Part shown: positions 6,308 through 9,000 of the stretch, one piece after another | How the letters are laid out: every line of letters begins with the position of its first letter | Numbering within the stretch: the stretch's first letter is position 1 | Assembly: GCF_022539405.1 (NCBI RefSeq) | Contig: NZ_CP054394.1 | Location: 870,501-934,500, forward strand | Length of the DNA stretch: 64,000 nucleotides | DNA from: Natranaerofaba carboxydovora | GTDB lineage: Bacteria > Bacillota > Natranaerobiia > Natranaerobiales > Natranaerofabaceae | Direction of reading: 5' to 3' | The notes under the pieces: model-generated | The model's database searches: none | Told to the model about the DNA's origin: nothing | Seen by the model: the letters and a program-made list of their open reading frames with translations, nothing else | Translations under genes and position numbers: made by a program

Positions 6308-7261
6308 ATGTTTGAGCATAAAATAGACCAAAGAGAAGAAGGAAAAAGACTTGATAAGATAGTATTAGGTTTTGTTGATAAAAGCAGAAGTCAAATCAAA
6401 AGGATAATTGATGAAGGAAATATACTTGTAAATGAGGAGATAAAAAAGCCAGGTTATAAAGTGAAAAAAGGAGATATAGTCAAAGTAGATTATGAAAAGG
6501 CATTACAAAATGATACCATGTTAGAAGAGTCTTTAGCTCCTGAGCCATTAGAGCTTAATATAGTATATGAAGATGAAAACATAATTATAGTTAACAAACC
6601 TAAAGGTATGGTTGTACATCCTGCTCCAGGGAATGTTAGTGGAACACTTGTAAATGCCTTGTTAAATTATACAGATAAGCTGTCCAATTTAGGTGGCAAG
6701 TTTCGTCCTGGTATAGTTCACAGGCTAGACAAAGATACATCAGGAATTATGTTGATTGCCAAAAATGATACTACCCATGCTTATTTTAAGGAAAAATTTA
6801 AGTCCCGTGAAATAAACAAAGATTATCTTACCCTTTGTTACGGAGATTTTCCAGAGGAAAAGGCCCTTATTGATGCTCCCATAGGAAGACACCCTGTAGA
6901 TAGGAAAAGGATGTCTATTACAGGCGAGGGGCGGGAATCAATTACCAAAATAAAAATATTATCAAAGTTTTATATTAATAACAATACTATTAGCTATTTA
7001 AAAGTGACGCCAATAACAGGAAGAACTCACCAAATAAGAGTGCATTTAAGTCATTTAGGTTATCCAATTATAGGTGATGAGATATACAAAGGAAGAAAGG
7101 ATATTAATCTTAATGAAATAAAATTTATATCAGGACAAGTTTTACACGCTTTTAAGCTGCGCTTCTATCATCCATATAAAAAAAAAGAAGTGGTTTTTAG
7201 GACACCACTTCCATTTGATATGATGAATTTAGTCCGCAGGCTTAACAGGATCAACAAATAA
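6308..7261 (+). CDS. rluD: Large-subunit pseudouridine synthase, RluD family
   Basis: An N-terminal S4 RNA-binding domain (about residues 10-70, with RLDKIVLGFVDKSRSQIKR) is followed by the RluA/RsuA-type catalytic domain. The active-site loop HRLDKDTSGIM near residue 138 contains the catalytic aspartate, and GRTHQIRVHL is near 240. It probably modifies 23S rRNA; the RluD/YlyB subgroup fits the length of 317 residues. ATG at 6308 is chosen over GTG 6293 because GGGGGTGAGGG lies just upstream and it keeps the usual N-terminus. Its 3' end overlaps the convergent rqcH by 33 bases. Confidence 0.9.
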   Translation: MFEHKIDQREEGKRLDKIVLGFVDKSRSQIKRIIDEGNILVNEEIKKPGYKVKKGDIVKVDYEKALQNDTMLEESLAPEPLELNIVYEDENIIIVNKPKGMVVHPAPGNVSGTLVNALLNYTDKLSNLGGKFRPGIVHRLDKDTSGIMLIAKNDTTHAYFKEKFKSREINKDYLTLCYGDFPEEKALIDAPIGRHPVDRKRMSITGEGRESITKIKILSKFYINNNTISYLKVTPITGRTHQIRVHLSHLGYPIIGDEIYKGRKDINLNEIKFISGQVLHAFKLRFYHPYKKKEVVFRTPLPFDMMNLVRRLNRINK

Positions 7262-8227
7262 GGTTTTGTAATTATCATAAAACACCATTCCAGGTTTAGC
7301 ACCTTTTGGTTTTCTAACATGTTTAATACGAGTATAGTCTACTGGTACATTACTTGAATTTTTCCCTTTAGAGTAATAGGCGGCGATAGAGGCTGCTTCC
7401 TCTATAGTTGATAATGGCGCATCCTTACCTTTTATCACAACATGTGAACCCGCAATTTCTTTAGTATGAAGCCAAATATCTTCAGAAGATGCTTCTTTTA
7501 ATGTAAGATAATCATTTTGCTTATTATTTTTACCAACTAATATTTTAAAACCATCTTTAGAAATAAATTCTAAAGAACTTTTTTTAGTTGGATCTGTCTT
7601 TTTCTTCTTTTTAATGTCTTGCTTTTTCTCACTCAAATAGCCTTCTTTTATTAACTCTTCTTTGATAGTATCAAGTTCTTCTAAATCTTCAGCACTTTCT
7701 AATTGAAAACTTATGTTTTCCAAATACTTTATCTCTGCCTCTGTATTTTTTATCTCTTTTTTTAGTTTTTTATTTCTGGTTTTGGCTTTTTGGTATTTTT
7801 TAAAGTAACGTTGTGCATTTTCACTAGGAGACAAAGATTTGTCTAAGTTTATTTTTATTGTTTTTGGAGGGTCTTCATAGTAATTAGTAACCTCAATATT
7901 ATCACTTTCAAGTTTTTCTTTTGAAAACCTATATAAATTTGCAGTTAAAAGCTCCCCAAAAATTTTGTACTTTTCAGCATTCTCACTTTCATTGTACTCT
8001 TTTTGCTGCTTTTTTAGCTTCTTTCTAGACTTTTTTAGCAAATGGTTTGTTTTTTTATTTAACTCATTTTCAAGGGAAATTTTTTTCTCTTCTGTTGCTT
8101 TAGTGTAATAATATTTATCAATCGCTTTCATTAATGAAGTTTGAGTTTTTTTATATTCTTTGGGGAAGCTAATATGATTTAAGGGTATTAAATAGAAATC
8201 AATTAATTTTTCTTTTTTACATCCCAT
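7229..8227 (-). CDS. rqcH: RqcH/NFACT protein, C-terminal part (-1 frame)
   Basis: This frame carries the coiled-coil middle region and the NFACT-R domain near the C-terminus (FISKDGFKILVGKNNKQND, then DIWLHTKEIAGSHVVIKGK) of the RqcH/Rqc2 family. RqcH binds obstructed 50S subunits and recruits tRNA-Ala for alanine tailing. The apparent ATG at 8225-8227 has no Shine-Dalgarno and is probably not a real start. The frame is -1 relative to the upstream half. A -1 shift at the A-AAA-AAG heptamer at 8212-8218 would fuse the two halves into about 590 residues, the usual family size. Otherwise the gene is broken, or the sequence has a one-base error in a homopolymer. Confidence 0.75.
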   Translation of the reverse strand: MGCKKEKLIDFYLIPLNHISFPKEYKKTQTSLMKAIDKYYYTKATEEKKISLENELNKKTNHLLKKSRKKLKKQQKEYNESENAEKYKIFGELLTANLYRFSKEKLESDNIEVTNYYEDPPKTIKINLDKSLSPSENAQRYFKKYQKAKTRNKKLKKEIKNTEAEIKYLENISFQLESAEDLEELDTIKEELIKEGYLSEKKQDIKKKKKTDPTKKSSLEFISKDGFKILVGKNNKQNDYLTLKEASSEDIWLHTKEIAGSHVVIKGKDAPLSTIEEAASIAAYYSKGKNSSNVPVDYTRIKHVRKPKGAKPGMVFYDNYKTLFVDPVKPAD

Positions 8228-9000
8228 AAAAAAATAGGATCTATCTCATTAGATAAGATTTGAGTTTTTAGTTTATTTAGTTGAATAATTAGAATATCTA
8301 ACTGGCTTTTTGTAAGCTCGGCTGCAGCCTTATTTGCTAAATTAGCTCTATAAGCTAGTTCTCTTGACAGTAGAGGACTTACCCCTTGAAAATGATTAAA
8401 CAACAAATTTTCTGTTTTAATTTCGTCATCTATGGTGTTTAATAAAGTTTCTGGATTTAAATCATCATTCCAGGGGTTTTCTTTGTTTTGACCTGGTGGT
8501 CTTTCGAAGAGATTGCCAGGTATTATTTCCCTCATATTAGAAAATTCTCTTTTGATCCTCTTTATCCCATCTAATATTCTTTTATTTTTTTTATTAACAA
8601 GAATTAAATTACTGTGCTTTCCCATTATTTCAACAGTTAAAATCAATTCTTTTTCTAATCCAAATTCATCCTGATGAGTAATATAAATATCTAATATTCT
8701 ATCACCTTCATATTGCTTAATATCCCTAATGGTCCCGCCTTTTAAATATTTTCTTAAAAGCATACAAAATGATGGAGGATGATCCGGGTTTTCATGTCTT
8801 ATATCAGTAAGATGGACTCTACAGAAGTTAGGATGTGTACTAATAAAAAGGGTTGAATTTTTTCCGAAATTTCTTAGGTGTAAAGATATATCATGGTTAT
8901 TATGCTGATAAACATTGTTGATTTTAGCATCTTTTATATGTTTATTTAAATCTATTTCTATAGATTTGGTTACAAATCCGTCAAATGGCATTTTAATCAC
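8203..9000 (-). CDS. rqcH: RqcH/NFACT protein, N-terminal part (0 frame)
   Basis: Contains the NFACT-N domain beginning MPFDGFVTKSI, with the conserved TDIRHENP near residue 65 and the basic/aromatic region LLRKYLKGG near 85; the DR pair fits the tRNA-contact motif known in this family. A strong GGAGGTGATT Shine-Dalgarno precedes the ATG or the in-frame start at 9000. Translation in this frame stops three codons after gtA-AAA-AAG. The stop falls exactly where family members continue through a P-x-I/V...DF segment, which the other frame supplies as KLIDFYLIPLNH. It is divergent from the ATPase gene. Confidence 0.78.
   Translation of the reverse strand: MIKMPFDGFVTKSIEIDLNKHIKDAKINNVYQHNNHDISLHLRNFGKNSTLFISTHPNFCRVHLTDIRHENPDHPPSFCMLLRKYLKGGTIRDIKQYEGDRILDIYITHQDEFGLEKELILTVEIMGKHSNLILVNKKNKRILDGIKRIKREFSNMREIIPGNLFERPPGQNKENPWNDDLNPETLLNTIDDEIKTENLLFNHFQGVSPLLSRELAYRANLANKAAAELTKSQLDILIIQLNKLKTQILSNEIDPIFLWDVKKKN

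Follow-up and report, generated by a model that had tools for sequence, protein, structure and literature searches.

The rqcH gene of Natranaerofaba carboxydovora was found to be divided between two reading frames, and is very probably an ordinary rqcH interrupted by a single-base insertion or deletion, arising either as a sequencing error or as a recent mutation. The gene lies on the minus strand of a 64,000-nucleotide stretch of the genome, referred to here as the window, and the split was seen by direct reading of the assembled sequence, with the −1 frame carrying the protein on as described in the initial annotation. The frame change is a true feature of the assembly, although the assembly alone cannot show that the organism has it too. 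The first open reading frame extends from ATG 8991 to a TAA codon at 8205–8203 and comprises 262 codons; a GGAGG Shine-Dalgarno sequence is present just 5' of this ATG, which is likely to be the start rather than GTG 9000. From 8245 the −1 frame runs open to its stop at 7229. The initial annotation had given the same stop for the first frame, with a length of 265 codons that was not borne out, and a joined product of about 590 residues, close to the ~588 counted here from ATG 8991, both halves of which are normal RqcH.

Membership of the RqcH family was indicated by the NFACT-N, middle and NFACT-R domains, which were found in order across the two frames (PF05833, PF05670 and PF18297), the second frame matching PF05833 over profile positions 251–455 (E=7.3e-51) and PF05670 with E=1.7e-14. 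The single continuous ORF usual for RqcH, which is not strictly defining, is absent, with two frames in its place. Because the NFACT_N profile runs across both frames (1–258, then 251–455), the domain matches indicate one gene in two frames; a pair of separate genes was ruled out, a single Pfam domain being divided between the frames. The break lies within NFACT_N, in a variable loop flanked by conserved strands and not at a domain border. At the junction the zero frame reads ATT TTT TTA TGG GAT GTA AAA AAG AAA AAT TAA. Both frames are open together over 13 codons, where the frame change must fall, and this overlap contains a heptamer of the X XXY YYZ form, A AAA AAG, in zero-frame phase as previously annotated, together with a run of seven T (Table 1). 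A length error in either homopolymer (A6 or T7) had been raised as a possible cause; the A run was retained as a candidate, and a shift at the T7 run is disfavoured because the aspartate of an LWD motif, present in many relatives, would be lost.

Table 1. Features of the split rqcH gene and of other frame-broken genes in the assembly; positions are those of the window except where a contig or locus prefix is given.
Feature	Position	Strand	Evidence or remark
rqcH (NFACT family), one frame change inside	7229..8991	-	Pfam NFACT_N and NFACT-R on two halves
First rqcH ORF, NFACT-N and HhH region	8203..8991	-	PF05833 E=1.7e-74, profile 1-258
Second open frame (-1) of rqcH, remainder of NFACT_N with the coiled coil, followed by NFACT-R	7229..8245	-	
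Stretch shared by both frames, 13 codons	8206..8245	-	Stop-to-stop frames
A AAA AAG heptamer, zero-frame phase	8212..8218	-	Sequence
T7 run within the frame overlap	8228..8234	-	Less likely shift site, by alignment
FAD-binding/fumarate-reductase-like flavoprotein gene, frame-broken	C1:2685870-2687532 (L183:5870-7532)	-	PF00890 split across frames
Probable broken lipoprotein gene	C1:689391-690355 (L034:18891-19855)	+	5-base tandem repeat at break

RqcH genes were extracted from 30 relatives, among them the two members of the same order that were available, and aligned. The N. carboxydovora genome is a single contig of 3,264,732 bases, the search set contains just two further species of its class, and the nearest relatives in the comparison belong to another family of the same order; a scan of GTDB for a closer RqcH gave nothing nearer than ~50% identity. 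The comparison, proposed in the initial annotation, returned intact single ORFs, with RqcH occupying one frame in all 30 relatives (567–701 residues, stop to stop), in keeping with the earlier remark that the protein is usually encoded by one continuous ORF. None of the 30 carried an in-phase heptamer at the junction; together with the intact ORFs, this is the comparative part of the outcome that the initial annotation had named as refuting recoding. The string AAAAAAG was present within 30 bases of the junction in two distant relatives; at the junction itself one same-order relative has AAA GAT GAA AAA and the other TAT GAC AAA ACC. Conservation of the motif and of the split among relatives, a mark of programmed frameshifting, was not found; the break is unique to one genome and spanned by homology, the pattern of a gene broken by an indel or an error.

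Identity to the same-order relatives was ~44% in the N-terminal half and 49–52% in the C-terminal half (44% and 49%, respectively, to relative G002), so that neither half is decaying and both are equally well conserved. Among columns at least 90% conserved in the other 30 proteins, the conserved residue is retained in the joined protein at 35 of 38 in the N-terminal and 45 of 46 in the C-terminal part, a retention as good as in the intact relatives; with nearly all conserved residues kept in both halves, the break, if a real mutation, would be recent. Across 150 Bacillota genomes, a frame-split RqcH was seen only here and in genome G058, and where other genomes gave multi-piece RqcH matches, the pieces shared a frame or were interrupted by the end of a contig. 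The split in G058 (C1:409463-410693, minus strand) falls near profile position 400, a different place from the break described here.

Other broken genes are present in the assembly. Frame changes were sought in 422 conserved genes with a homologue in a relative, drawn from ~740 kb of the genome; rqcH had the only one, the other candidate pairs listed in this check being mostly antisense shadows or ordinary neighbours. Scanning the ~740 kb for coding potential yielded 181 frame-to-frame neighbours, mostly ordinary gene pairs, of which the strongest overlaps were checked. At least one other clear frame-broken gene, encoding a flavoprotein, and probably a second, encoding a putative lipoprotein, were identified (Table 1), with no slippery heptamer at either break. 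In the flavoprotein gene PF02910 lies in the second frame and no homopolymer of six or more bases occurs at the break; in the probable lipoprotein gene the signal-peptide part and the main part are in different frames. These finds put the frequency of sporadic frame breaks in the assembly at a few per megabase. A survey covering 1106 genomes ascribed singleton frame breaks to sequencing errors or indels when BLAST homologues spanned them (PMC3711429). The rqcH break resembles the singletons of that GeneTack survey in being bridged by homology, confined to a single genome and without a conserved frame transition; nothing essential sets it apart, and its slippery-looking heptamer would be incidental. 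The position of rqcH as the sole break among 422 genes, in an assembly where breaks are rare, is a point against an indel.

The heptamer itself is common in this genome. In-frame A AAA AAG was counted at 111 sites in 93 of the 422 genes, rqcH included (0.73 per 1000 codons), and the chance of an in-phase copy in a random 13-codon stretch is ~1%. Indels, however, arise preferentially in homopolymer runs. The same genes contain 521 A or T runs of at least seven bases, 90 of them (17%) in-phase A7G, and if one base were lost from an A or T run of this length, A AAA AAG would be expected in ~17% of cases, roughly one in six. Because deleting a single base from an in-phase A7G produces precisely A AAA AAG, the presence of the heptamer is weak evidence. 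In comparison with synonymous codon shuffles of the 422 genes, A AAA AAG was over-represented 1.41-fold (z = 4.0) and A AAA AAA was under-represented (0.78-fold). The E. coli motifs with negative z-scores include A AAA AAG (PMC4066793). Given its over-representation, the motif is not avoided here as a costly slip site would be, and apparently the organism does not treat it as one. T TTT TTG was also over-represented in frame, 2.0-fold relative to the shuffles.

Under the favoured explanation, the reading frame would have been lost by one base in or beside the short A run, with A AAA AAG a by-product, in the same phase, of one base lost from an in-phase A7G. Were this a sequencing or consensus error, the gene would be truly continuous; were it a recent single-base change in the sequenced strain, an N-terminal fragment of ~262 residues would be made. 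We infer that error and mutation have roughly even shares in the probability.

It is improbable that −1 slippage of the ribosome at A AAA AAG, whether programmed or leaky, gives full-length RqcH with an NFACT-N fragment as the unshifted product. The in-phase heptamer within the overlap, expected there by chance at the ~1% given above, speaks for such slippage, as does the lack of decay in either half. Two tRNA-Lys genes were found, only tRNA-Lys(UUU) being represented in a tRNA list that is perhaps incomplete, and this sole isoacceptor would permit slippage. When stimulated, A AAA AAG ranks near the top of the −1 motifs in E. coli for efficiency; heptamers lacking a stimulator reach at most ~10 times the 0.055% background there (PMC4066793), and unstimulated slippage alone is little to supply an enzyme. 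Neither a stimulatory structure, in folding without pseudoknots, nor a Shine-Dalgarno sequence 6–17 nt upstream was found at rqcH. The 63 and 101 bases 3' of the heptamer folded no better than shuffles (z = +0.29 and −0.43, respectively), no sliding window of 40, 60 or 80 nt within ~110 nt downstream had a z below −1, and the upstream GGGA is only 3 nt from the heptamer, in agreement with the absence of an obvious hairpin and of a well-placed internal Shine-Dalgarno noted previously. The only hairpin predicted (−11.1 kcal/mol, matched by 22 of 200 shuffles, z = −1.27) sits upstream and abuts the heptamer, a position reported to attenuate −1 shifting in the system of one study (PMC6321510). The heptamer is, moreover, conserved in none of the 30 relatives and over-represented in the ordinary genes of this genome, and a biological reason for producing a fragment is not apparent. 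IS3-type elements, which might have revealed slippage by this host, were sought with an rve profile; no match exceeded the cut-off and the weak matches were single ORFs.

The E. coli dnaX −1 programmed frameshift uses A AAA AAG in a phase identical to that in rqcH, but is accompanied by an internal Shine-Dalgarno and by a stem-loop downstream, neither of which was found at rqcH, and the dnaX shift gives a shorter product whereas rqcH would need the shift for its full-length product. IS3-family transposases likewise use A AAA AAG to link two overlapping ORFs into a longer protein; in that family there are downstream hairpins or pseudoknots and the overlap is conserved across members, whereas rqcH is elsewhere a continuous housekeeping gene. 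We infer that recoding is absent at rqcH. The initial annotation had left a choice between a programmed −1 frameshift and a broken gene; its recoding option is unsupported and the broken gene or sequencing error is upheld, so that its interpretation as a whole is partly supported. It is more doubtful still that RqcH is made only by −1 slippage on the A-rich lysine stretch, its level tied to ribosome behaviour at poly-lysine codons; if true, this would constitute an autoregulatory loop with a logic comparable to that of the prfB frameshift.

A lower probability again attaches to a split RqcH, in which the C-terminal half would be translated separately from ATG 8227 and the two halves would assemble. 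This ATG is in frame and upstream of the stop of the first ORF (overlap ~24 nt), and the two ORFs together hold all domains; yet the second frame has no start preceded by a Shine-Dalgarno sequence, the break is in a loop inside NFACT_N instead of at a domain border, and the two-gene arrangement occurs in no aligned relative. Transcriptional slippage at the A6/A5 runs or the T7 run, yielding a minority of in-frame mRNAs, is the least credible of all, as the AT-rich genome and the short homopolymers at the junction favour it but these runs are of 5–7 bases, selection against slippage is evident at ~9 in many genomes (PMC1088944), and the 422 genes of this genome still contain 339 runs of A7 and 83 of A8.

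The functional setting was also considered. Genes for tmRNA and SmpB are present in this genome, and B. subtilis survives the joint loss of rqcH and tmRNA when growth conditions are normal (PMC8012679), so a broken rqcH would be viable in principle. Of 11 genomes searched for a small RqcP-like S4 protein, 7 had one; it was undetected in the other four, namely N. carboxydovora, the two same-order relatives and G038. Loss of the whole RQC pathway, examined as support for pseudogenisation, proved uninformative, as the two same-order relatives and G038 have an intact rqcH though no RqcP-like protein was detected in them. In the three genomes of the class (G000, G001 and G002), either RqcP is too diverged to be detected or the partner differs.

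If recoding were real, rqcH would be a rare case of −1 frameshifting by a conserved housekeeping gene of the cell, tying ribosome rescue to its own synthesis. In an AT-rich genome, little weight can be given to a textbook slippery heptamer found at a frame break, because loss of a base from an in-phase A7G creates the heptamer automatically. The results suggest that annotation may mark rqcH of N. carboxydovora as a pseudogene though the gene could be intact.
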